64,000 nucleotides of DNA, taken from positions 372,001 through 436,000 of the forward strand of contig OZ005696.1 of assembly GCA_963930775.1 (NCBI GenBank), read 5' to 3'. Position 1 is the first letter of the stretch. Every line of letters begins with the position of its first letter. Under the pieces are notes generated by a model. The model did no database searches. It was not told the origin of the DNA and saw nothing but the letters and a program-made list of their open reading frames with translations. The translations under genes were made by a program, and so were the position numbers. The stretch is from Cliona cf. orientalis (lineage: Eukaryota > Porifera > Demospongiae > Clionaida > Clionaidae). Shown in pieces: positions 47,170 to 62,937 of the stretch.

Positions 47170-49075
47170 ATACGTGTGGTTTATAAAGATGGCGTCCATG
47201 ATCCATCCATCTGGCTCAGCTCTCCTCATCAAAGTGGAGCTGCCTTGGTCGGAGGAGAAAGCTCCTAGCCTCCTTTGTCAGCAGTCTGACCACAGGCATA
47301 CTTACACCCCTCAGCAGGAAGCTGTTTTGGGGGGGGGGGGGGGGGGGGGGGGGGAAGAGGGTCAAAATTTAATGATTGAGCGGTAAGAATTACTGGGATT
47401 TTACCTTTGTTTTCTGTGATGGTGTTTCAGAGAGTGATTTGTTGATGGGGACCTATATATACCAGCGAGGTATTTCCCATCAAATTCACACTGCTACTGA
47501 GATTGGTCGGGTACGCTACTGGCTGTGTAGTGTGAGCCTGTGGATTGTACAACGACGATATCCCAGGCAAAAACCCGGGAAAACAGACTGGAGAGGTGGC
47601 GTAGCTCTGCATGGGGACGAAGCTGCCAAATGCAGGCACGATGGGGTTAAACGGATAACCGAGAGTGGGGTTGATGAGAGTAGCTTGTGGCGAGAGGAGA
47701 GTGGTTTGGTTTGGTAGCGCTGCTGACTTTTGTAGCATGGGGTAGACAGTGGCCATACTCTGATGTGGTAGAGCGTTAGCCTGGTGGGGCTGATGTTGTC
47801 CCTGCGATAACACAAGGCTGGCCGCAAGCTGTGGAATACTACTAGCACTGTAGCTTGGAGTGGGCGGGGCAAGGGTGGAGCCTGAGGTTGTGCTGACTCA
47901 GCAGTCATTGATGGGCGGAGTTGTCCGATGATAGCGCTGGATGTGGACGGTGCTTGTGTGTGTGGAGGTGGAGAGGGGGAGAGTGTTTGGGAGGGTGCAG
48001 TTGAGGTCACAGAGGTCACTAGTGGGCTGGGCTGGTGGGTGTGGTCAGCATTGGCGATGGGACTGCAGGCGTTCTCCAGTAGGGGGCTGAGTTTGGTGCG
48101 AGCTTTGCTCTTCCTTTGTGAGAGTGAGGGTGTGAGGGGGTGAGCCTCGGCTGCTGTGAACCTGATGACCCCTTCAACAATATACCTGGAGCTGAGAGAA
48201 TATACACACAATGACACATACACACATAATTATACTATATAGTGGAAAAATATTGAGGGAGAAAATCTTCACGAGTTTTGTAGTTTTATACCACCCCATG
48301 AAATTTTAGGTATGCCACACCCATCTATGCGATAGGTTTAACATTCTGTGAAAATTTTCTCCACCAAATGCTCCCTTCTTACCGATCCGTGAAAATTTCT
48401 TCCCACAAAAGTTTCCCGCTATACGGTACACACACATACACATTCAGTGACACACACACAGAGAGAGAGGATGAGGTGCTTTAGAAACAGGTGTGTAGGG
48501 TTGTGGAATAACCACTCAAAATATACTCTATTCCTCCCTAAGAGTTTTTGGTCTGCACACCCTAAACAACTGCCATACCCCTCTCCCTCCACTTACTGTG
48601 TTAAGGATGCTGTATTATTGTGTATACATGTTCGGACACACCTCTACACCTCTTTAAATCAGCCGCTCTCTGCCACTGCCACTGAAGTTTAGCCCATAGG
48701 TGACCGATACAGACAGCTTCCACAGTCTCTAGTTTTCACGGCCGATAATTCTTGTCTTTCACATCTGTATGGATAAAATGAAATCTTTATGGCTCATGCT
48801 GGCCTGACTAGCCTACATGGCAAAATACAATCATTCAACCACACGATGTACTCCTAATATTAACTCGCTCTTTGTTGGTTTGCTTTACCTTGTTTGTGTC
48901 GTGAGTATAGAGGCTCATCACTCAGTTCCTCTTCTCTCGATGTCTTGATGTCTCCAGTAGGGGGCTGAGTTTGGTGTGAGCTTTGCTCTTTCTTCGCTTG
49001 TGCTGGTGTGGGTGGGCCAGGGGGCGTGGTCTTCAGCTTCTTTGCTGGAGGTTCAGAGTCACTTCCACTTGAGGC
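47170..49075 (-). pseudogene. Duplicated tail-exon block, copy 2 (exons C, B, S, A), degraded
   Basis: Descending: exon C (49075-48889) stays open for 62 codons in a frame that differs in the middle from the 51.5-kb copy, because of one extra C. Exon B (about 48,187-47,480) starts RYIVEGVIRFTAAEAHPL, but a 1-nt deletion near 47,870 shifts its frame before the rejoined MATVYPMLQKSAALP part. The region between B and the small exon S is deleted, so S abuts B internally. Exon A (about 47,324-47,200) has a deletion and an early stop. This looks like a decayed copy. It would lie 3' of NLR-2 and could be transcribed with it. Confidence 0.6.
48233..48428. mobile_element. MITE, family b, in tail block copy 2
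   Basis: The right end CCCGCTATACGGTA is intact; the left end is worn (TACTATATAGTGG). It sits at the same block position as 26494, 50755 and 60754, hence an insertion older than the duplications. Confidence 0.75.
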
Positions 49076-49496
49076 CTGAGGGGAAAAATTGAAGGTAGTA
49101 TAGTCTTATAGGTTGGACTTTTTTGCTAGAATGATTTTGTAAAATACTCCTGGGACAAAACATTTCCCTTCTAGGGAAGAGAAGAAATATACATCCAAAA
49201 AATAAAATAACGTACAGCAGAAAATATTCGAGGGAACTTTTGCGAATCAGTAGGAAGTGAAAATTTGTGGAGAAAACTTTTGTGGAATGCTAAATCAATC
49301 GTATAGGGGGTGGGGCATGCTCAAATTTCGAGGAGAAAACTTTTGTGAATGGCTCGATCACAGGAAGCTGTGATCATTAGTGTGTGTGTGTGTGTGTTGG
49401 GGGATGAACAGAGGTTAGATGATTGAATTTGGAACAATAAAATTTGCTGGAATTTACCTTTGTTTTCTGCAATGGTGTTTCAGAGAATGATTTGTT

Positions 49497-49500
49497 GATA

Positions 49501-49583
<83 letters not shown>
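49497..49583. repeat. GA microsatellite
   Basis: About 85 bp of GAGA/GATAGA. It replaces the 5' part of the small exon S that is intact at 59799-59737 (AGA TCC AGG ATG ACT...), so copy 3 probably lost that acceptor by repeat expansion. Confidence 0.85.
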
Positions 49584-49586
<3 letters not shown>

Positions 49587-49624
49587 CAATACTTCATTAA
49601 TCAAAACCATCACTATTCCCTCAC

Positions 49625-51613
49625 CTTGCTGTCGGCTCTCTTGTCTGAGAAGATGAACCAAGGAGGGACACTTTGAAGGTGGCTCTGGTGACCTGAGCTG
49701 GCCTGCTGGGGGGAGGAGCACACTGAGCCACCCCACTTGCTGTGCTGGGGACCCACCAGCGAGGTATTGCCCATCAAATTCACACTGCTACTGAGATTGG
49801 TCGGGTACGCTACTGGCTGTGTAGTGTGAGCCTGTGGATTGTAGAACGACGATATCCCGGGCAAAAACCCGGGAAGACAGATTGGAGAGGTGGCGTAGCT
49901 CTGCATGGGGATGAAGCTGCCAAATGCAGGCACGATGGGGTTAAACGGATAACCAAGAGTGGGGTTGATGAGTGTAGCTTGTGGCAAGAGGAGAGTGGTT
50001 TGGTTTGGTAGCGCTGCTGACTTTTGTAGCACGGGGTAGACAGTGGCCATACTCTGATGTGGTAGAGCGTTAGCCTGGTGGGGCTGATGTTGTCCCCGCG
50101 ATAACACAAGGCTGGCCACAAGCTGTGGAATACTACTAGCACTGTAGCTTCGAGTGGGCGGGGCAATGGGTGGAGCCTGTGGTTGTGCTGACTCAGCAGT
50201 CATGGATGGGCGGAGTTGTCCGATGATGGCGCTGGATGTGGATGGTGCTTGCGTGTGTGGAGGTGGAGAGGGGGAGAGTGTTTGGGAGGGTGCAGTTGAG
50301 GTCACAGAGGTCACGAGTGGGCTGGGCTGGTGGGTGTGGTCAGCCTTGGCGATGGGACTGCAGGCGTTCTCCAGTAGGGGGCTGAGTTTGGTGCAAGCTT
50401 TGCTCTTCCTTTGTGAGAGTGAGGGTGTGAGGGGGTGAGCCTCGGCTGCTGTGAACCTGATGACCCCTTCAATAATATACCTGGACCTGAAACACATACA
50501 TACACATACATAATTACCGTATAGCCGGAAAATTTGGCGGGGAATTAAATTTAGCAGTTTGGCGGTCGATATTACAACCGCCAAATTAAAATCCGCCAAA
50601 ATTTCCAACTCGCATATATACGTATGGCTATCCCGTACCAAACTGCCAAATTTAATATTCTTGCAATAGCGATTTTGGGCTCAACCGCCAAATTTAATTC
50701 CCGCCAATATTTCCGGCTATACGGTACACACAATGACACATGCATACATAATTATACCATAATACAGCGGAAAATTTTTGAGGGAGAAAATCTTCACGAG
50801 TTTTGTAATTTTACAGTACCCCATGAAATTTTAGGTATGCCACACCCATCCATGCGATAGGTTTAACATTCTGTGAAAATTTTCTCCATGAAATGCTCCC
50901 TTCCTACCGATCCGTGAAAATTTTTTTCCCACAAAAGTTTCCCACTATACGGTACACACACATACACATTCAGTGACACACACACAGAGAGAGAGGATGA
51001 GGTGCTTTAGAAACAGGTGAGTAGGGTTGTGGAATAACCACTCAAAATACACTCTATTCCTTCCTATATAAGAGATTTTGGTCTGCACACCCTAAACAAC
51101 TGACACACCCCTCTCCCTCCACTTACTGTGTTAAGGATGCTCTATTATTGTGTATACATGTTTGGACACACCTCTACACCTCTTTAAATCAGCCACTCTC
51201 TTCCACTGCCACTGAAGTTTGGCCCATAGGTGACCGATACAGACAGCTTCCACAGTCTCTAGTTTTCACGGCTGATAATCCTTGTCTTTCACATCTGTAT
51301 GGACAAAATGTAACTTTATGGCTCATGCTGGTCTGACTAGCCTACACGGCAAAACACAATCATTCAACCACACAATGTACTCCTAACATTAACTGGCTCT
51401 TTGTTGGTTTGCTTTACCTTGTTTGTGTCGTGAGTATAGAGGCTCATCACTCAGTTCCTCCTCCAGTCTCTGTACTCTATGTCTCGATGTCTCCAGTAGG
51501 GGGCTGAGTTTGGTGCGAGCTTTGCTCTTCCTTCGCTTGTGCTGGTGTGGGTGGGCCAGGGGCGTGGTCTTCAGCTTCTTCACTGGAACTTCCGAGTCAC
51601 TTCCACTTGAGGC
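49625..51613 (-). CDS. Tail exons C and B, copy 3: the intact Pro/Ser-rich version
   Basis: Exon C (51613-51418) encodes ASSGSDSEVPVKKLKTTP, basic HKRRKSKARTKLSPLLE and EEELSDEPLYSRHKQ, and ends phase 1. Exon B (about 50486 or 50480 to 49625) is a single open stretch of about 285 codons, starting RYIIEGVIRFTAAEAHPLTP, repeating the basic KSKA.TKLSPLLE motif of exon C, then Pro/Ser/Gln-rich with YPFNPIVPAFGSF and YATSPICLPGFLPG, ending FSDKRADSK at a GTGAGG donor. Only this copy of B has no frameshift. The basic clusters could be nuclear signals. I do not recognise the family. Whether these exons splice onto NLR-2 or form a separate gene is unresolved; the NLR exon and exon C share phase 0, but the C-to-B phases do not match in my model. 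Confidence 0.5.
50515..50726. mobile_element. MITE, family a, inserted only in block copy 3
   Basis: It starts TACCGTATAGCCGGAAAATT and ends TTCCGGCTATACGGTA. The equivalent positions in copies 2 (about 48,215) and 4 (about 60,740) lack it and read straight through similar flanks, giving a natural empty-site comparison. A TA target duplication is consistent. Confidence 0.9.
50755..50954. mobile_element. MITE, family b, in tail block copy 3
   Basis: It lies 30 bp beyond the family-a insertion. It has the same internal 'tgaaattttaggtatgccacaccc' words as the other block copies and the end CCCACTATACGGTA. Confidence 0.75.
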
Positions 51614-51939
51614 CTGAGGAAAAAAATATCGACTCAATTAAAATAGTATAGTTTCATGGGTTTAGTTCCGCCCCCTCATGTGACCATCAAAATAAGCTCC
51701 ATAATATAATGCGCATGATATTTTTAATTTTCCATATCAGTTGTGTTTGTCACATGAAAATGCATATTGTGTTCATCACGTGTTTATTGCCTTTTGCATT
51801 GTTACTTGCTCGTAACAATAAGCAGAAATAACTTGTGATATTTCCGGTTCTACTATGGCAATAATCGATAGCTGGGGGAGGGGTATACATTAACTCGGGT
51901 GACTAATATTAATTGGAATAATAAAGTAACCTGGAATAA

Positions 51940-52326
51940 TACCGTATTTTCTCGTTATTAGGCGCATTTCGCATATAAGCGCATACTAATATTATGTGAC
52001 CATTGACCTCGATATCTGGACGCTTGCTAGCTTGCCCAGGGCTCCAACCTTTTCAAGTTAGTCGAAATTACGATGGCTACTGTCGATTCTCAGATTCTTC
52101 CAGTAATGAACGCCATTTCGACCTGGGCAGAATGTAGCAACGTGAACGATCGTGCGATCGATCGATTGGCCACGCCCCTTAAATGATACCGCGAACGCGC
52201 ATGCGTTCTTGATGTAGCTATTTTTTGTTAGGCGCATCTCGCTGTTAGGCGCACTTCGTTATTAAGCGCAGGTTTTCTTCCTGTGGAGATATAAACGCAT
52301 GCGCTTAATAGCGAGAAAATACGGTA
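51940..52326. mobile_element. MITE, family d (TACCGTATTTTCTCG termini), inserted in block copy 3
   Basis: It starts TACCGTATTTTCTCGTTATT and ends with the perfect inverted CGAGAAAATACGGTA. The interior repeats 'ttaggcgcatttcgc' and 'gcgcttaata'. Block copy 4 (about 61,915) lacks it, reading cctggaatattatttcagagc where copy 3 is interrupted. 387 bp, with a TA target. Confidence 0.9.
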
Positions 52327-52676
52327 TTTTAGAGCAATGGGAATTTCCCTGGTTAGCAATGTACATTACAATGGAATTATATTATACATGAGGAAACATG
52401 TAAACGGCCATACTTTTTTTTACTAGGTAATTCCAGTACCAAAACAAAAAGTAATATAAAACTGAAACTACTAGAGTTGCTATTGCCTGAGCACATCATA
52501 TTATTTCATACTATCAAAATCCTGCTTTATGACACAAAATAAGCTCTATAGTTAATTTCATTATAACTATTGTGGTACAATGACACCTGGTTAAGTAATT
52601 ATGCCTAACTAAACTACAAATGTCATGGTTGGGAAAACAACTACCAATACGTATCGCCATGGTGACAAGGTTCAAC

Positions 52677-53160
52677 TTACAGTGAGTTGATGGCTCGTTT
52701 GAGCTCCTTTGATACATCACAGAGCTCTGCATCCTCCAGCAGGCGGATCAGTCCCTGCCATGACTTGGGGTACCTGTCAGCAATGGGAAGGTCATCAGCA
52801 TTCTCCAACCATCGTCCCATCACAACAGTGATGCAGCGATATCTGGTGCGATTGTCGGCATCAACAGATTCAATCTCTCCTCGTTCCAAGCCCAGCACAG
52901 TAGCAATCTGTCTCCACTTGTGAGCTATCTTGGAGTAGATCCTGAGCTCTCTTTTTACCCCTTTTTCATCCTTCCACTTTATCAGTTCCATGAAGCGGTG
53001 TTCAACGTCAATACAATCTACAAGAGAGAGATAACACATAATAGCAAATCGTCCACACACTGTATACATGTACATTTTAACTAAGCACCTTGTTTAGGTC
53101 GTTTTGTAGGTGGGGGTCGTAGGTCAGGTGAGGTATCTGACCCAGAATCACTGGTGCTTC
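52677..53160 (-). CDS. Tail exons E and F with a Death domain, NLR-2 side (copy 3)
   Basis: Exon E (53160-53089) encodes a short Ser/Asp then Pro/Lys linker ending TKRPKQ. Exon F (53017-52677) encodes a Death-type domain: YSKIAHKWRQIATVLGLERG, MGRWLENADDLP, KSWQGLIRLLEDAELCDVSK, then a stop TAA that also forms part of a GTAAGT donor. The E-F junction is phase 1 on both sides. In the related third locus the preceding exon D feeds these exons in frame. Here exon D stops early, so this Death domain may not be translated from NLR-2. The domain itself is intact and is nearly identical to the copy at 62.4 kb. Confidence 0.7.
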
Positions 53161-53225
53161 CTATTGTGGTTTGGTAATTGTGAAAGTTGACAGCAATCAA
53201 TTGTTCAGCTACTTACCTTCTGATG

Positions 53226-56200
53226 TTATTTGCAATCAGTTGACTCCTTACTGTAGTCAGACTTGTCTCTGCTAGGCTCCTCATCCTCATGACCAGTGGG
53301 TGACTCTGAGGTTGACAGTAGCTGGACAAAATTAATTAAAAATTAATCTTTATTATATTATATAGACTGGATGTACTCTACAATGTGCTCTTTGCTGAAG
53401 CCACGCACCTCAACAAATCGATCAACATCAGAGTCACTTCAACTCGAGGTCTGCATGAGTGAAAAAAAAACATTAGGTGCAAAAGATATATAAATAATTA
53501 TTTCCTCAATTGAGGTGGCATAGTTTCATAAATGTATACGTTGGACTTTTTTTGCTAGAATGATTTTTGTATTTCTCTTCTAGGGAAGGGAAGGAGTGTA
53601 CATTGAAAAATAATTATCATCTAGGCCTAGCTATACTTAGAGAGGATCACGATGAATGCTGTGCATGTTCTACATTTGGAGCGTTACAAGTTCTAGTTAT
53701 ATTCTAGTTATATTATGGCAGGCATCTTCCTTGTATTGGCCCCTCCTTTCGCATGTTGCCCACAGTGTCACTGTGTACACTAACATGAAACTGCTTGAAA
53801 CTATAATATTGATGTTCCTTTGTATTGGAGAATATTCTGTCACTAGTTACCTAGGCAACATCTAACAATGTGCTGTACACTATAACTTCCATATATTATT
53901 ATTATTATGGATATTTTAACTTGAATAGGACGGGTATTTTTATACAATGTCATGATAAACATCTTGCATCCACTGGGGGAGAAATCAGTGAAGTATAGTA
54001 GCTAGTTACAGTACATAGATCCAGATCAGCTCACCTCTTTATGTACTTCCTCCTCATGACTCTCATAATGAAGTCTTGTCAGTTCCTCCTCTAGCCTCTC
54101 CATTATCTCAATATTGTGTTGAACTGGGTTGTTGGAAAGGTAAGGGTACATACCAAACATTATGTCTGGATAACGCCACAAATGAGGGAACAGTGGTAGG
54201 TGATCTATTAGAGCAGACACACCTCTGCCATCTATTTGATTATTCTGAAGGTACCATTCATCTAGCTTACTGCAAAGACCGGGTTTGAGGTTACCAAGAA
54301 GCCATATGAGGTCATCAGAAGTGATACCACAGACACTGATATCGAGAAAATCCAAACCTGGACACAAGTGCATGAAGCCAGCTAGAATGTGAATACCATC
54401 GCCTGTAAAGCTGTTGTGATCCAGATCAAGCCCATTTATGGTGCTAGTTTGAGGCATTTGACAAAGCTGTCTTCCCACAGCCTCACAAGATATAAAGTCA
54501 GTACTGGGAAGACCACCTCCAGCTGTTGTTAGATCACACCTGGACAAGTTAAAACGCCTTGTTTCATAGTGACTACTACTGAGCATTCTACCAACAGCTA
54601 TGGTTCCCTCAAGTCCTAGTGGGTTGCCCCTGAGATCAAGCATATCACAATCATCCATATTCTTTGACACCAGCTTAAGCTCTCCTGAACAAACAGCATC
54701 AGCCAAGCATGAAACACCAGAGGCATGGATATCATTGTCTGACAATCCCAGGTGGGATATGGCTTTGAGACTCTTAACCAAAATAGTCAAACCTTTGTCA
54801 CCAAGATTGGTCTTATTTAAATATAACCGACCACGTGCATGTAGTTTTGCTAGAGCAGATGCTCCAGGTACACCAAGATTGTTGTCAGAAAGATTAAGAT
54901 GCTTTAGTTTAGGAAAATGACCTGAAAAAGAAGCTAACAACTTAGCATTAGTGTCAGCGTCACTGGTGAGAGACCCCTCCAGGTTAAACTCCTTCAATTT
55001 AGCTAAAATGTCACCACGTACTGCACTTTCTAATGCCTGCAGACTAGAGACTGTTAGTCTACTACCACGCAGATTCAATTTAGAAATCCACAGCTTTCCT
55101 TTCTTACTAGCTAGTATATGCATTAATTCTTTAATTTGGTTCTCACTAGCTTTACCAAAGTTAACCTCCAAACCACGACCACACTCCTGCAAGTTAGCAA
55201 TAACATGGAGTATTGCACTACAGTCATAAGCAGTGAGAGGATAACCGAAGAAAACCATCTTTGATGAGGCTAAATATTGAGTAATGTTTTTATTAATTAA
55301 GTCATTATTGGCTTCTAAGGCACAGTGGCAAAGAGACAAACGGTCGTATAGAGCACCTGCTACACATTCCAATGTTTGCTGAATAAAAGAAGTTGTGGCT
55401 CCACTGAACTCATTAATGCCAAAAAAAAACTGCCACACCATTTTAAAACGATGTGAGGATTTTGACTTGTATGCCTGAAAGTTCTCAAGTTGTTTATCTC
55501 TTGGCTGTCTTGTCAGGTACAGGGCAGCAAGGTACTCCTGGAAGGTCAGATGGAGAAAGTGGAAAGATATGCCAACACCAATGAAGTCAAAGGACTGTAG
55601 TAAGCCAAAACCTTTATCTAAAGCTAACCCTTCGGGGAATAATGTCTCTAGTTCTTCTTGAGAAAAGACAAGCTGATCTTTTTCCAATGCCAAAAAAGCA
55701 AACCTACACAGATGCAACAATGACTGTTGTGGATCTGCAAGAAGCGACTCCAATGTAGGCAGCACTAAAACTGATTTGTTACAGTCAGTTTTGCGTACAT
55801 ATATGTCCCGAAAATTTAAGTTACGAAGGATCTTAGTGTAGAGCTCTGTCATGGTGGTGGGAAGGGCTTCCTCAAGAGTGCGCCACAAGTGACAAACAAT
55901 GGCACAGTTGAGGGGAACACTGCACACACTCTCAACTAGTGGGTTGCCCTCTAACTGCTCTCTGAGACGATCTGCCTTTCCCTGGTCACTAGTAAACTCA
56001 GACTGGATGTACTCTACAATATGCTCTTTGCTGAAGCCATGCACCTCAACAAATCGATCAATATCAGGAAGCTTACGAAGTGGAGCAGAGGCAGAAGGTC
56101 GAGAGGTCACTACAACTGACATGAGACAAAATCTGTGACCAAAAAGAAATTGGTATAAAAAAGATTCTTCTCGTTGTTGAGATTCACCAAGCTCATCCCA

Positions 56201-59200
56201 TCCATCGGCAATGATGAGCACACTCTCTCCCTCCTCATCTTCTAAATACCTAGCTACTGAGTCACAGAGCCTTGGACTAGGGTGCAGTAGCTTGAGCAAC
56301 TCAGGAAGGGAGCCTGCTGAGGCTACTGCCTTCATTTGAAGTGGTAAGAGGAGAACCAACTCAAACTGCTGAAATAGCTTCCCTATGCCAGCATCACCTT
56401 CTACAAGGACCTTTCTAACTTCAAGTTGCCTCTTCCCACTCTCCACCTTAAAGAGGTCACCATAAGCTAGGGGAGTGCGTTTGATAGCCTTTTTCTCACT
56501 GCCTCTCTGTGTGTTAGCAGAGTAGCCCTCTCCTTTCTTTCTCTCTACTACTTCTAACCTCACCAGTTTGTCTGAGTGGCAAGGGGGCCACTGTTTCTCA
56601 CGATTGATACGCCTTCCTTGATACTTTTTTTTCATACTGGAGATAAACCTGGAGCATTCAACTGACATATTCCCATGAGCACCTGAGGATAAAACACAAT
56701 GATCTCATTTAGTGCGTGCATGTTTGACCAATCAGATCATTGATACCACAACAAACTGCTAGCCTGTCAACAAACGAGTACAGTAGATAAGTTATCACAT
56801 GCATGCCCATAAAGGACCCGTTACTATTTACATCCGCTACTAGGCATCTGGACAATAATCTGGTATCTCCTAACTTAATGTCACAGTGATGTTAAAGTAG
56901 TGTGCATGTGTGTGTGTGTGTGTGGGGGGGGGGGGGGAGGCTATTGTGTCAAGGAGGTACGTACTAACTTAAGAGGAGAAGGGGTTGGATGGGGGAAGAT
57001 CCACCCAGGTTACAGGCCTGTGTGTGCATATATATATATTATAATATGTGTGAAGGGTGGGGTACTACCTTAGGCTATGATTATTTGCGGGTACAAATTT
57101 TGGAAATAGTGTGTTTAGCGGGTACTCATTTTAATGAGTTTTCAAAATAAAAGGTTGATATTCGTGGGTAAAATTTTGTGCAAATTGGGCAAATCGCTAA
57201 TTTAGCTAAATTTAATACCCGCAAACAAGTGTCCTTAAGCCTTGATCGTTAGTGCATGATATTCATAGCTTACAATATTATAATAGCCTATCGATATCAT
57301 GGCATCAATACATGACCAGCTAGTGTATAGCTACTCACCAGTTGATGGATGTGGCAACTTCTCTTGTGTTTTCATAATCTATTACACAAAGAATGCAGTG
57401 TGGGAGAGGTATAATAATACTGTGTGTGTAGGCATGCATTTCTGTGGTTAGTGTATGTTATGACACAGCATGGCAGTCTGCATACCTATGGTATAATAAC
57501 ATTATTGAAACATTTAAGGAACTAGTATAATACATAATAATATTATAATATGGGAACTAGTATAGGAATATCTGTCGTCACATAAGAAAAAAGAGCTGAT
57601 AGCTATAGCAGCTATCCATGTAATGTTCTAATAATATACATCAGGTCAAATCAGGTAATTGAGGTACGATCACTATGTACTACTGGATAATATACAGTAT
57701 AGCCGGAAATATTAAATTTGGCGGTTGAGCCCAAAATTGCTATTGCAAGAATATTGGCAGATTTAAATTTGGCGGTTCGGTACGGGATTGCCATACGTAT
57801 ATATGTGAGTAGGAAATTTTGGCGGATTTTAATTTGGCGATTGTAATATAGACCGCCAAACCGCCAAATTTAATTCCCCGCCAAATTTTCCGGCTATATG
57901 GTATACACAACGTGTACAACAAGCAATCTTGGAGTTGATACATTAATTTTAGTATACTAGAGCAGCAAATAGCTAGCTAGCTACTCTAGTGTTCAGACCA
58001 GAATCAATTCTCATTCATGAGGTCCCAAGTTATGCTCAGTGGCCTAAATTAGTACGGATATAGGTTTAAATCCATTGAGCCACATGTACACTGCACACGA
58101 AAAGCTATTGAGTAGGTACATGGTAAAAATGATGATAGCAGTGGAAAGCTCTTCTTATGACCGTATCTTGGTGTAGCTTGTGAAATAATGGTTACAGTAA
58201 TCAGTCCCCTGGATTATCCCTTGGGCCTTGGCTCTTATCAATATCCCCTTATCAAAATGATCTCAGTATAATATTATTATGTGTGGACAGAATAGAAAAA
58301 TACATACCTTATCTTTCAAAGATTTGATCACAGCATCCTTTTCCTCCTTTCTGAAGTGCTTTTGTCCCGTTCCAATTCTCAACAGCCACTTGCCGGCATT
58401 TTGGTGGTCGACAACATCCTCATCTTCCAACAGCATTGGAATGATCGTTTTCGGCTTGGGGTCTTTTTGCAGTGCAGCATAGTATAGTTCCCTGAGGCAC
58501 CAGAGGGAGGTAGCATAGCCACCGGTCATGATGGGGATGATAAAATCACACTGTTTAATCACCCTAAAGATCTCCTTGCTCAGGATATCTCCATAATCAA
58601 TCCCTTTTTCGTCCATCCACGGTTTGCATCCTTGGGCCTCTAACTCGTCATAGAGGCATTTGGCTTCAGCGTATGCATCTGGTGAGTCATCAAATATTTT
58701 TCTCCTACTGAAGCTAATAAACACTTTGGGGCGATTTTCTATAAAAGTAAGCAGATAATAATTAGTTGAAATCTCATTACTCTAAGGATATAATACAGTA
58801 TACCTGATTCAGCTTCAGGATCTTCAGGTGAACTGGCAGGAATATACTTTCTCATTTCCACTGTAAAATCATAATAATATTATTATAATGTGCAATGAAC
58901 TAGTGTCAACTCCTCACATCATATCTCACTCATTCTTACACTGAAATGTTGTTTCCATCTTTCTGATACCGTCATTGAAGCGATTCCCAACATTCAGAGC
59001 GGTGCCAACGACATGTTGCAAGGAGTAATAGTTAACGGGATCGAGAGAAATCTCGTTCAGGACCGCCTTCAGAGGCGGATTTGATGGATCATCGTCGGAA
59101 GAGGGAATCAGTCCACAGCTATATGCTTGACTAATAAAATCTTTAGGAATAATCGCCGAGTTAATCTCTCCATACGATTTTCGAACAGTGTTGTACTCAG

Positions 59201-59246
59201 GAGTAGTGTCACCACTCGAGGGAATCTTGATACTGCCAGTAGCCAT
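53226..59246 (-). CDS. NLR-2: helical domain-TIR-NACHT-LRR receptor, 6 exons, P-loop damaged
   Basis: Exons 59246-58940, 58860-58804, 58738-58308, 57378-57339, 56682-54035 and 53321-53226 join in phase to 1192 residues. Residues 1-102 form a helix-rich domain (YNTVRKSYGEINSAIIPKDF, AYSCGLIPSS, DPVNYYSLQHVVGTAL) like a CARD/Death fold. Residues 122-265 are TIR: RPKVFISFSRRK, then DFIIPIMTGGYATS and LWCLRELYYAA, with the Glu of the NADase-type W-C-x-x-E motif near 205. Then NACHT and LRRs, closely related to NLR-1. The Walker A ends GDAGIGKLFQQF: 45 nt found in NLR-1, including the two Thr, are missing; Walker B (IIADGWDEL) is kept. Exon D gives an acidic/serine tail that ends at an in-frame TAA. 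The start could instead be the Met at 59291. A separate TIR gene ending before the NACHT exon is less likely, as the TIR exon ends at a good donor. Confidence 0.78.
53376..53455 (-). pseudogene. Chimeric fragment: start of exon C joined to a NACHT segment
   Basis: After a CAG acceptor-like site the sequence follows exon C (GTGACTCTGA) and then continues as the NACHT piece encoding VDRFVEVRGFSKEHIVEYIQ, found also inside NLR-1 and NLR-2. It has an in-frame stop near its start. The twin at 63,375-63,430 has the same junction, so the fusion preceded the block duplication. Confidence 0.7.
56685..57338. other. NLR-2 intron between linker exon and NACHT exon
   Basis: AT-rich intron of about 650 bp. 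It contains a poly-G run (about 56,923-56,937) and, at about 57,060-57,245, an inverted-repeat element with 'atttgcgggta' / 'tacccgcaaac' words and 'cttaagg'-like ends. No coding content. Confidence 0.5.
57693..57903. mobile_element. MITE, family a, in an NLR-2 intron
   Basis: It starts TACAGTATAGCCGGAAATAT and ends TTCCGGCTATATGGTA, inverted relative to the copy at 50515. It contains the same 'ccgccaaaccgccaaatt' words. It lies in the intron between the TIR exon and the 13-residue linker exon. Confidence 0.85.
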
Positions 59247-59536: not shown

Positions 59537-60715
59537 TCAGCTCTCCTCATCAAAGTGGAGCTGTCTTGGTCGGAGGAGAAAGCTCCTAGCCTCCTCTGTC
59601 AGCACCCTCTGGTCAGCAGTCTGACCACAGGCATACTTAGACCACTCAGCAGGAAGCTGTGGGTGGGGGGGGGGGGGGGGGGGGGGGAGAGGTTAGATGA
59701 TTGAATTCAAAGCAGTAAGATTTGCTGGGATTTTACCTTTGTTTTCTGCGATGGTGTTTCAGAGAGTGATTTGTTGATAGCCTCAGTCATCCTGGATCTC
59801 TGCAGAGAGAGAGAGAGTCAATACTTGATTAATCAAAACCATCACTATTCCCTCACCTTGCTGTCTGCTCTCTTGTCTGAGAAGATGAACCAAGGAGGGA
59901 CACTTTGAAGGTGGCTCTGGTGACCTGAGCTGGCCTGCTGGGGGGAGGAGCACACTGAACCACCCCACTTGCTGTGCTGGGGACCCACCAGCGAGGTATT
60001 GCCCATCAAATTCACACTGCTACTGAAATTGGTCGGGTACGCTACTGGCTGTGCAGTGTGAGCCTGTGGATTGTAGAACGACGATATCCCGGGCAAAAAC
60101 CCGGGAAGACAGACTGGAGAGGTGGCGTAGCTCTGCATGGGGACGAAGCTGCCAAATGCAGGCACGATGGGGTTAAACGGATAACCGAGAGCGGGGTTGA
60201 TGAGTGTAGCTTGTGGCGAGAGGAGAGTGGTTTGGTTTGGTAGCGCTGCTGACTTTTGTAGCATGGGGTAGACAGTGGCCATACTCTGATGTGGTAGAGC
60301 GTTAGCCTGGTGGGGCTGATGTTGTCCCTGCGATAACACAAGGCTGGCCGCAAGCTGTGGAATACTACTAGCACTGTAGCTTGGAGTGGGCGGGGGGAAT
60401 GGGTGGAGCCTGAGGTTGTGCTGACTCAGCAGTCATCGATGGGCGGAGTTGTCCGATGATGGTGCTGGATGTGGACGGTGCTTGCGTGTGTGGAGGTGGA
60501 GAGGGGGAGAGTGTTTGGGAGGGTGCCGTTGAGGTCACAGAGGTCACCAGTGGGCTGGGCTGGTGGGTGTGGTCAGCCTTGGCGATGGGACTGAAGGCGT
60601 TCTCCAGTAGGGGGCTGAGTTTGGTGCGAGCTTTGCTCTTTCTTCGTGAGAGTGAGGGTGTGAGGGGGTGAGCCTCGGCTGCTGTGAACCTGATGACCTC
60701 TTCAACAATGTACCT
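59537..60715 (-). CDS. Tail exons B, S and A, copy 4 (B frameshifted, S and A intact)
   Basis: Exon B (about 60,715-59,857) begins RYIVEEVIRFTAAEAHPL but changes frame near 60,395, where copies differ by small indels in a G-rich stretch. It ends FSDKRADSK at a GTGAGG donor. Exon S (59799-59737) encodes RSRMTEAINKSLSETPSQKT plus K, phase 0 on both sides. Exon A (59656-59537) encodes LPAEWSKYACGQTADQRVLT, continues to RQLHFDEES, and stops. This is the only place where B's end, S and A all join in one frame, so it shows what the ancestral C-terminus looked like. I do not recognise the family. Exon A's acceptor is preceded by about 23 C's on the coding strand. It would belong to the third NLR locus or to a separate gene. 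Confidence 0.5.
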
Positions 60716-60753
60716 GGACCTGAGACACACAATGACACATACATACATAATTA

Positions 60754-60955
60754 TACCGTATAGCGGAAAACTTTTGAGGGTGAAAACCTTCATGATTTTT
60801 GTAATTTTATAGCAGCCCACAAAATTTTAGGTACATGTATGTCACACCCATCTATGCGATAAATTTAACATTCCATGAAAATTTTCTCAGTGAAATGCTC
60901 CCTTCCTACCGATCCGCGAAAGTTTTTTCCCACAAAAGTTTCCCGCTATACAGTA
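60754..60955. mobile_element. MITE, family b, in tail block copy 4
   Basis: It starts TACCGTATAGCGGAAAACTT and ends TTTCCCGCTATACAGTA, with the family's internal 'ctaccgatccgcgaaag' word. Same block position as the other three copies. Confidence 0.8.
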
Positions 60956-61417
60956 CACACACATACACATTCAGTGACAGACACACAGAGAGAGAGAGGA
61001 TCAGGTGCTTTAGAAACAGGTGTGTAGGGTTGTGGAATAACCACTCAAAATACACTCTATTCCTCCCTAAGAGTTTTTGGTCTGCACACCCTAAACAACT
61101 GACATACCCCTCTCCCTCCACTTACTGTGTTAAGGATGCTGTATTATTGTGTATACATGTTCGGACACACCTCTACACCTCTTCAAATCAGCCACTCTCT
61201 GTCACTGCCACTGAAGTTTGGCCCACAGGTGACCAATACAGACAGCTTCCACAGTCTCTAGTTTTCACAGCTGATAATCCTTGTCTTTCACATCTGTATG
61301 GACAAAAAAAAATCTTTACGGCTCATGCCGGCCTGACTAGCCTACATGGTAAAACACAATAATTTAACCACACGATGTACTCCTAACATTAACTCGCTCT
61401 TTGTTGGTTTGCTTTAC

Positions 61418-61601
61418 CTTGTTTTTGTTGTGAGTATAGAGGCTCATCACTCAGTTCCTCTGTTCTCTATGCCTCGATGTCTTCGGTTGGGGGCTGAGTT
61501 TGGTGTGAGTTTTGCTCTTCCTTCGCTTGTGCTGGTGTGGGTTGGCCAGGGGCGTGGTCTTCAGCTTCTTCACTGGAACTTCAGAGACTTCCACTTGAGG
61601 C
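61418..61601 (-). pseudogene. Tail exon C, copy 4, with altered frame
   Basis: Compared with 51613-51418 it has small deletions early in the exon (around 61,588) and near its end (around 61,460). Entered from the phase-2 donor of exon F, it stays open through VEVSEVPVKKLKTTPLA and TKLSPQPKTSRHREQRN before a stop; entered at phase 0 it does not. So either this copy serves as an alternative end after the Death domain, or it is decayed. Confidence 0.45.
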
Positions 61602-62254
61602 CTGAGGGGAAAAATATCAATTCAATTAAAATAGTATAGTTTCATGGGTTTAGTTCTGCCCCCTCATGTGACCATCAAAATAAGCTCCATAATATAATGC
61701 GCATGATATTTTTTAATTTTCCATATCAGTCGTGTTTGTCACATGAAAATGCATATTGTGTGTTTATTGCCTTTTGCTTTGTTACTCGCTTTTAACAATA
61801 AGCGGAAATAACTTATGATATTTCCGGTTCTACTATGGCAATAATCGATAGCTGGGAGAGTGGTATACATTAACTCGGGTGACTAATAGTATGGAATAAC
61901 AAAGTAACCTGGAATATTATTTCAGAGCAATGGGAATTTCCCTGGTTAGCAATGTATATTACAATGGAATTATATACATGAAGAAACATGTAAACGGCCA
62001 TACTTGTTTTTACTAGGTAATTCCAGTACCAAAACAAAAATAAAACTGAAAACTATTAGAGTTGCTATTGCTTGAGCACATCATATTATTTCACACTAGT
62101 ACTATCAAAATCCTGCTTTATGACCAAAATAAGCTCTATACTAACTATTGTGGTACAATGACACCTGGTTAAGTAATTATGCCTAGCTAAACTACAAATG
62201 TCATGGTTGGGATAACAACTACCAATACGTATCGCCATGGTGACAAGGTTCAAC

Positions 62255-62937
62255 TTACAGTGAGTTGATGGCTCGTTTGAGCTCCTTTGATACATCACAG
62301 AGCTCTGCATCCTCCAGCAGGCGGATCAGTCCCTGCCATGACTTGGGGTACCTGTCAGCAATGGGAAGGTCATCAGCATTCTCCAACCATCGTCCCATCA
62401 CACCAGTGATGCAGCGGTATCTGGTGCGATTGTCAGCATCAACTGATTCAATCTCTCCTCGTTCCAAGCCCAGCACAGTAGCAATCTGTCTCCACTTGTG
62501 AGCTATCTTGGAGTAGATCCTGAGCTCTCTTTTGACTCCATTTTCATCCTTCCACTTTATCAGTTCCATGAAGTGCTGTTCAACGTCAATACAATCTACA
62601 AGAGAGATATAATACTATAATAGCAAATCGTCCACACACTGTATACATTTTAACTAAGCACCTTGTTTAGGTCGTTTTGTAGGTGGGGGTCGTAGGTCAA
62701 GTGAGGTGTCTGACCCAGAATCACTGATGCTTCCTATTGTGGTTTGGTTATTGTGAATGTTGACAGCAATCACTTGTTTAGCTACTTACCTTCTGATATT
62801 ATTTGCTCATTGCAATCAGTTGACTCCTTACTGTAGTTAGATTTGTCGCTGCAAGGCTCCTCATCCTCATGACCAGTGGGTGAATCCTCATCATTGGGCG
62901 ATTCCTCATCACTGGATGACTCTGAGGTTGACAGTAG
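62255..62937 (-). CDS. C-terminal exons D, E, F (acidic linker and Death domain) of a third NLR-like locus, partial
   Basis: Exon D (62937-62790) encodes LLSTSESSSDEESPNDEDSP and further acidic residues, ending at phase 1. Exon E (62733-62662) encodes SISDSGSDTSLDLRPPPTKR and a short end. Exon F (62595-62255) encodes a Death domain with YSKIAHKWRQIATVLGLERG, RWLENADDLPIADRYP and SWQGLIRLLEDAELCDVSKE, then stop. All three join in frame, unlike the NLR-2 copy. By analogy with NLR-2, exon D should follow a NACHT-LRR exon ending in phase 0, which would lie beyond 64,000. A C-terminal Death domain would let an NLR recruit downstream Death-domain adaptors. Confidence 0.7.

Follow-up and report, generated by a model that had tools for sequence, protein, structure and literature searches.

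It is chiefly from plants that NLRs with an N-terminal TIR domain are known. The major N-terminal groups of animal NLRs are four, namely CARD, PYD, BIR and the acidic transactivating domain (PMC10952240; this and the other papers cited here, PMC7075850 excepted, are represented by part of their text), and fusions of TIR and NACHT have been reported in cnidarians (PMC8260672) and in amphioxus (PMC2575513). Among sponge NLRs, a few NLRX are described with other N-terminal domains, and TIR is not among the domains of the NLR figure legend; of the 14 TIR genes of D. avara, six carry Ig and one carries Death and was taken as MyD88, the available text giving partners for seven of the 14 (PMC12909245). 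TIR and NLRP-family domains number 36 and 151 in Halichondria panicea, 56 and 143 in Terpios hoshinota and 5 and 10 in Amphimedon (PMC12465263). The available text of three sponge papers does not mention a TIR-NLR (PMC8242945, PMC6208332, PMC12465263), the first two having used PF01582 and not TIR_2 in their searches, and neither a sponge TIR-NLR nor a sponge NLR with a C-terminal Death domain was found in the open-licence literature as far as its text was covered. Here, a candidate of this kind is described from the sponge Cliona cf. orientalis, on the minus strand of a stretch of 64,000 nucleotides (nt) referred to as the window (contig OZ005696.1, C8:372001-436000), together with its relatives in the genome (216.8 Mb in 149 contigs searched). 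With a probability of roughly 0.72, the locus is a member of a lineage-expanded NLR family whose full form would be an N-terminal domain of ~100 amino acids (aa) followed by TIR, NACHT, LRR, linker and Death, acting through the mechanism proposed below.

Gene structure of the window copy

The exons and other features of the window gene are as follows (window coordinates; c462 and c581 are paralogs).

58940..59246, minus strand: exon 1, start codon and ~100-aa N-terminal domain, conserved in TIR-bearing paralogs
58804..58860, minus strand: exon 2, a 57-nt linker with both borders in phase 1
58308..58738, minus strand: exon 3, TIR domain of the TIR_2 type (PF13676)
58488..58502, minus strand: W-C-L-R-E motif, its glutamate aligned to the plant TIR position
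57339..57378, minus strand: exon 4, 40 nt, connecting the TIR and NACHT exons, peptide IMKTQEKLPHPST
54035..56682, minus strand: exon 5, NACHT and LRR body
56376..56390, minus strand: 45-nt gap relative to paralogs (15 aa, from the end of Walker A onwards)
53217..53321, minus strand: exon 6, acidic linker, 105 nt to the donor shared with c462 and c581
53252..53321, minus strand: alternative form of exon 6, 70 nt to an upstream GTAAGG donor, phase kept
53089..53160, minus strand: exon 7, 72-nt linker, STSDSGSDTSPDLRPPPTKRPKQ, of equal length in c462 and c581
52677..53017, minus strand: exon 8, with the stop codon and a Death domain taken to be C-terminal (PF00531, 23.8 bits; cut-off 22.6)

The core of five exons (exon 1, linker, TIR, 40-nt exon, NACHT-LRR) is genuine: all are bordered by GT/AG and free of stops, and their splice phases (1,1,0,1,0) are mutually compatible. 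The 57-nt form of exon 2 was also picked in c303, c328 and x9, and elsewhere the script chose longer or shorter readings or none. Pfam matches TIR_2 in exon 3 with 62.1 bits (cut-off 28), TIR also being matched, and in exon 5 it matches NACHT with 35.3 bits (cut-off 26.7) and LRR_6 with 39.8 bits (cut-off 23.4), along with sub-threshold matches to NLRC4_HD2 and NOD2_WH. In this copy as in a paralog on contig C9, NACHT is followed by LRRs, the order of an NLR, and a TIR stands ahead of the nucleoside triphosphatase (NTPase) and LRRs, the order of a TIR-type NLR. This NTPase scored as NACHT, and NB-ARC was not among the Pfam matches of the window copy to E 1 or of the C9 protein to E 0.01.

A preliminary description, made from the letters of the window, had proposed six exons in which a full TIR domain is joined to a NACHT-LRR body in one gene. 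The full TIR and the first five exons with their phases and freedom from internal stops are confirmed, and the joining of TIR to NACHT-LRR is supported by phases, exon order and the 40-nt exon shared by paralogs. Its sixth exon is not confirmed as the true terminus, and it overlooked that Walker A is short of 45 nt, that a Death exon lies at 53017-52677 and that the gene belongs to a family of ~20 copies.

The paralog family

At E ≤ 0.001 the genome yields 32 matches to the TIR exon, and 22 of these, the window included, have at least 72% identity over almost the entire exon; the remainder are one fragment with two stops and nine distant matches. Exon 1 is conserved and, where it could be placed, accompanies the TIR: it gives 23 match rows genome-wide, 18 of them, by coordinates, no more than 1 kb from a TIR exon of the family. 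The order exon 1, TIR, NACHT-LRR homolog on the same strand is seen in 13 of the 23 paralog segments that were read. Among the others, one is the broken TIR fragment and three (c264, x14_5639, x1_36550) were read just 1.5 kb past the TIR. In c1063 and c1070 a NACHT lies, by coordinates, 1.7-1.8 kb downstream of the TIR, and x14_4873, read over 9 kb, has exon 1 and lacks a TIR there. The exon 1 donor, the TIR acceptor and donor, and the NACHT acceptor are conserved where read.

The 40-nt exon 4, which offers the best evidence for a single gene, is also carried by the family. Of 22 paralogous segments, 17 have an exon resembling it 3' of the TIR, with scores of 37-69, peptides similar to IMKTQEKLPHPST and, mostly, TAATAG and GTGAGT as flanks; in the remaining five the score is at most 23. 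Its length is 40 nt, or 43 nt in c303, and for c519 and c1070 it is given as a 55-nt reading from the same start. A NACHT exon is known downstream in 15 of these 17 segments and was not seen in x14_4892 and x14_5639. When the window was scanned for AG..40/43..GT exons, exon 4 scored 69 against its own peptide, while no other candidate reached 30 on the minus strand or 25 on the plus strand. There is little other reason for an exon of 13 residues to persist after the TIR than that it joins TIR to NACHT, which is the likely explanation.

The end of the gene

The clearest copy is the C9 gene (3982440-3987772), which has seven exons (exons 1, 2, TIR, 4, NACHT-LRR, linker and Death), splice phases 1,1,0,1,1,1 and a frame that stays open over its full length of 1384 aa. 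Its protein matches TIR_2 with 50.2, NACHT with 72.1 and LRR_6 with 34.5 bits, the NACHT match starting at profile position 2 with Walker A present. Although a broken NACHT relative is found 30 kb upstream, the C9 contig holds no further family TIR or exon 1. The LRR donor of c462 and c581 is in phase 0 and their exon 7 has 72 nt, and the Death exon then follows in frame. The phase of the Death exon was checked in these three paralogs, and in all three it is in frame after the LRR exon.

The window copy departs from this at exon 6, which has 235 nt in c462 and 274 nt in c581 (both 1 modulo 3) and 105 nt in the window (0 modulo 3) at the shared donor. The frame is lost there, and therefore the window shows a TAA at 53228-53226; the Death exon is reached in frame only via the upstream GTAAGG donor. 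That TAA had been taken as the end of the gene in the preliminary description and is rejected as a real terminus, since C9, c462 and c581 continue to the Death exon. As these three copies run on in this way, the form of the family is read as TIR-NACHT-LRR-Death, and a C-terminal Death domain appears well supported for the family, if not proven. The architecture is clearer in C9, c462 and c581 than in the window copy.

Selection across the family

Pairwise ratios of non-synonymous to synonymous substitution rates (dN/dS, Nei-Gojobori; the pairs are not independent) have a median of 0.31 for the TIR (range 0.16-1.09, 22 sequences), 0.53 for exon 1 (0.16-1.52, 17 sequences) and 0.75 for the NACHT-LRR exon (0.44-1.02, 11 sequences). 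In blocks of 100 columns, the first five blocks of the NACHT-LRR exon range from 0.37 to 0.50 and the later ones, mostly LRR, from 0.66 to 1.23. A conserved signalling end together with diversifying LRRs is the pattern that an immune receptor would be expected to leave.

Proposed function and points against it

In the proposed mechanism, the variable LRRs would sense a microbial or self cue, upon which the NACHT ATPase would switch and oligomerise. Clustering would then gather the TIR domains, which could cleave NAD+ or template TIR assembly, much as plant TIR-NLR resistosomes gather TIR domains. The C-terminal Death domain would recruit Death-fold partners and could lead to an apoptotic or NF-kB-type output. 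A more ambitious version, which we regard as rather unlikely, would see tandem plant-style TIR-NLRs with two outputs, an enzymatic TIR near the N-terminus and a C-terminal Death domain, linked through a polymorphic LRR sensor, copies without Walker A, the window copy among them, being ATP-independent partners or decoys within the array. For the question of whether an animal NLR signals via NAD+ cleavage, the C9 copy offers a concrete protein.

Several observations weigh against the family reading and its mechanism. The architecture is shown at the level of DNA, and the Death match of the C9 gene (20.8 bits) is below the Pfam cut-off of 22.6, against 23.8 bits in the window. The C9 linker is a single 159-nt exon after a phase-1 LRR donor, whereas the C8 copies have two exons after a phase-0 donor, so that the structure of the linker is not conserved and the link to Death is not one unchanged structure. 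In c245, c254 and x14_4892 no NACHT occurs in the 6-8 kb read past the TIR, and close NACHT bodies without a TIR occur in the genome. The TIR glutamate, which among the 22 copies is replaced by Q in c1070 and by A in c1063, is present in more than 70% of TIRs (PMC7075850) and is not diagnostic of an NADase. Finally, dN/dS in exon 1 exceeds 1 between the window and c328 (1.32), c254 (1.52) and x1_36550 (1.41).

State of the window copy

Where paralogs read, with minor changes, GDAGIGKTTLCIAVSEDWANGKLFQQF, the window has GDAGIGKLFQQF and is 45 nt shorter. A full Walker A (GDAGIGKTTLC..) is present in all 12 paralogs read at this site. The pattern GxxxxGK[ST] is thus found in the family and is lacking in the window copy, which has GDAGIGKL and a Pfam NACHT match that begins at profile position 27. 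With the Ser/Thr of Walker A and the next stretch gone, ATP binding should fail, judging from the P-loop NTPase family. Compared with the paralog majority over the NACHT exon (59 ambiguous codons set aside), the window differs in 30 synonymous and 80 non-synonymous codons, and its nearest sister c462 in 25 and 51; these differences are suggestive and not decisive, because gene conversion is likely in such arrays. Elsewhere in the family, c607 has a stop in the NACHT-LRR exon.

The loss of Walker A and of the exon 6 frame would suggest either decay or a partner without a switch, and the window copy has probably decayed, or else might act as an ATP-independent modulator of its sister copies. There is about an even chance that it is a pseudogene of a working family, no longer functioning as a receptor, its TIR and LRR being left over by recent descent or gene conversion, which is compatible with the family reading given above. 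The 45-nt deletion, unseen in any of the 12 paralogs, the exon 6 that is out of frame at the donor of c462 and c581, and the excess of non-synonymous departures over those of c462 all fit a pseudogene. Such a fate is less easily matched with a deletion that is itself in frame, with exons 1-5 free of stops, with a second exon 6 donor that preserves the Death frame, and with a TIR dN/dS of 0.17 between window and c462.

TIR identity and the glutamate

At E ≤ 0.001, a profile built from 10 of the 22 family TIRs matched 14 PDB sequences. Judged by their names, plant TIRs make up nine of these (L6, flax rust resistance protein, ROQ1 twice, RPV1, RUN1 twice, SNC1 and AT1G72930), alongside a TLR15/TLR2 chimera, Cat1, two chains of ADP-ribosyl cyclase/hydrolase and a 'TIR domain protein'. 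The five top matches are plant TIRs (39.7-31.0 bits), followed by the TLR15/TLR2 chimera with 30.9 bits; as the PDB is rich in plant TIRs, this order ranks solved structures and not phylogeny. Extended to E = 10, the list holds 31 sequences, including TLR1 and TLR6 and at least two unrelated ones, and by name none of the 31 is MyD88, SARM1 or TIRAP. The likeness to plant TIR-NLRs that had been proposed from the window thus holds in that the nearest solved TIRs are plant resistance proteins.

The window motif SLWCLREL aligns with WCLMEL in flax L6 and WCLEEL in ROQ1, and its glutamate falls on what we take to be the catalytic residue of these two proteins. The glutamate is kept in 20 of the 22 TIR copies, and the W of the motif is absent in x14_4892 and c264. 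The W-C-x-x-E glutamate that the preliminary description had associated with NADase activity is there and aligns to the plant position, but its presence in more than 70% of TIRs deprives it of diagnostic value. The family TIR may be an NAD+-cleaving enzyme. That it serves solely as an assembly scaffold, like the TIRs of TLR adaptors, comes only somewhat short of an even chance. In favour of a scaffold, animal TLR TIRs match the profile too, the TLR15/TLR2 chimera above several plant TIRs and TLR1 and TLR6 lower, and both the wide occurrence of the glutamate (PMC7075850) and its loss from two of 22 copies can be read the same way; the plant TIRs in the five top places and the near-plant form of SLWCLREL argue for an enzyme instead. 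On a prokaryotic origin of the TIR, a scan of genome contigs with the TIR alignment, which works through two short peptide patterns and is weak evidence, gave 36 pattern matches, none of them confirmed as a relative.

The copies that lack the glutamate, c1063 and c1070, are adjacent (C8:1063-1071 kb; L053/L018 and L041/L020) and have also lost the five residues after the PWMD motif. These losses provide a natural test of the importance of the glutamate.

Position of the Death exon and gene boundaries

The Death exon has 11 other copies in the genome at no less than 60% identity. For seven of them, coordinates and open reading frame (ORF) lengths place a same-strand NLR body ~0.4-2.8 kb to the 5' side. 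The other four are farther away, ambiguous or beside broken bodies (C10:7489428, C10:7501715, C8:584549 and C13:2259069), and the copy at C10:7501715 is 1.3 kb ahead of a NACHT exon. Death exons alternate with NLR bodies in the C8 array, so that position alone is ambiguous, and the exon might be a separate gene or the start of the next NLR rather than the end of the window gene. The C10:7501715 copy, the loss of the window frame at the donor of c462 and c581, and a sister NLR in the window that appears to have an N-terminal Death exon would agree with this. Against it stand the C9 Death exon in phase after the LRR exon, the concordant phases of LRR, linker and Death in c462 and c581, and the distance to the next same-strand NLR body in the window, which is 21 kb further on. 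The start of a next NLR is rejected on these grounds, and a Death exon outside the window gene is considered improbable.

Least probable, and rejected, is a split of the locus into two adjacent genes, one an adaptor made of exon 1 and TIR and the other a NACHT-LRR gene beginning in exon 5. TIR exons that no NACHT follows as far as the sequence was read (c254, c245), TIR-less NACHT-LRR bodies such as that at 31274-27969 in the window and an in-frame ATG early in exon 5 would fit such a split. Against it, 17 of 22 segments have past the TIR the 40/43-nt exon, whose size is too small for an independent existence, and 15 of these 17 have a known NACHT exon downstream; moreover, the NACHT acceptor is conserved, and the phases fit in the C9 gene.

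The exon 1 domain

The preliminary description had read exon 1 as a CARD/Death-like domain. None of 15 exon 1 sequences matched in Pfam, NCBIfam gave no match, and a profile search of the PDB gave two matches, both azoreductase at E 0.34, which were taken as chance. Compared by hhalign with eight Death exons of the genome, in a comparison that had no positive control, exon 1 reached a probability of 0.1. AlphaFold2 predictions from single window sequences, with a mean pLDDT (predicted local distance difference test) of 44.5 for exon 1 and 44.9 for the TIR exon, were too poor for a fold search. By eye, the proline-separated segments of exon 1 could suit a helical bundle. The CARD/Death label is unsupported and should be dropped for the time being. 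A Death domain is present in the family gene, but at the opposite, C-terminal end from the one where it had been placed. With exon 1 unmatched and no MyD88 among the 31 PDB matches, the description of the gene as a MyD88-like adaptor fused to an NLR is likewise unsupported.

The surrounding array

Matches to Death, CARD and NACHT are many in this genome. Within the window, a sister NLR at 31274-27969 (minus strand) consists of a 1101-aa NACHT-LRR exon with intact Walker A and 76% identity to exon 5 over 852 columns; the window scan found no TIR or exon 4 upstream of it. The exon just upstream matches Death weakly, with 18.7 bits against a cut-off of 22.6, and its donor is in phase with the NACHT acceptor. 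Across the genome, some NACHT bodies that share 85-92% identity with the first 229 residues of exon 5 are accompanied by a TIR and others, by coordinates, are not, so that closely similar NLR bodies within the array seem to exchange their N-terminal modules.

Two further loci on C8 carry TIR exons apart from a NACHT. In c254 (C8:252107-260546; L046, L012, L067) the TIR exon is followed by the next exon 1 ~3.8 kb on with no NACHT between, and in c245 (C8:243813-251700; L004, L060) neither NACHT nor exon 1 occurs in the 6 kb read. Free TIR proteins are possible products of both.

The window also holds duplicated stretches at 47461-53303 and 59804-62883 with 90-96% identity. The duplicates carry another Death exon (62596-62258) along with proline-rich ORFs at 50680-49613 and at 60432-59845. 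NACHT relics of 21 and 23 aa (53426-53364 and 63418-63350, minus strand; 90% and 83% identity) lie ahead of linker/Death exons and were possibly left by unequal exchange. In the intron between the TIR exon and exon 4, short repeated motifs seen by eye at 57880-57690 on the minus strand (CGCCAAATTTAA and similar) are perhaps a mobile or tandem element.

Comparison with known systems

MyD88 also has Death and TIR in one protein, with the Death domain first. In the sponge family this order is reversed with NACHT-LRR between, and MyD88 is not among the names of the chains that the TIR profile matches. Plant TIR-NLRs (flax L6, ROQ1, RUN1, RPV1, SNC1) share with the family a TIR with S-x-W-C-L-x-E-L ahead of a STAND ATPase and LRRs; unlike them, the family has NACHT in place of NB-ARC, an extra N-terminal domain and a C-terminal Death domain. 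The TIR-NACHT proteins of cnidarians, mentioned in the preliminary description, and of amphioxus are likewise animal fusions of TIR and NACHT, although no exon 1 domain or C-terminal Death is described for them in the available text (PMC8260672, PMC2575513). Sponge NLRX, NLRC and NLRD resemble the family in their large NACHT-LRR expansions, some of them clustered, and differ in that the study of 11 sponges, in its available part, classes NLRs by CARD or Death starts (PMC12909245). The sister NLR in the window likewise seems to have an N-terminal Death exon. A conserved and repeated family of TIR-NACHT-LRR-Death receptors, if present in an early-branching animal, would show a plant-like layout on a NACHT scaffold.

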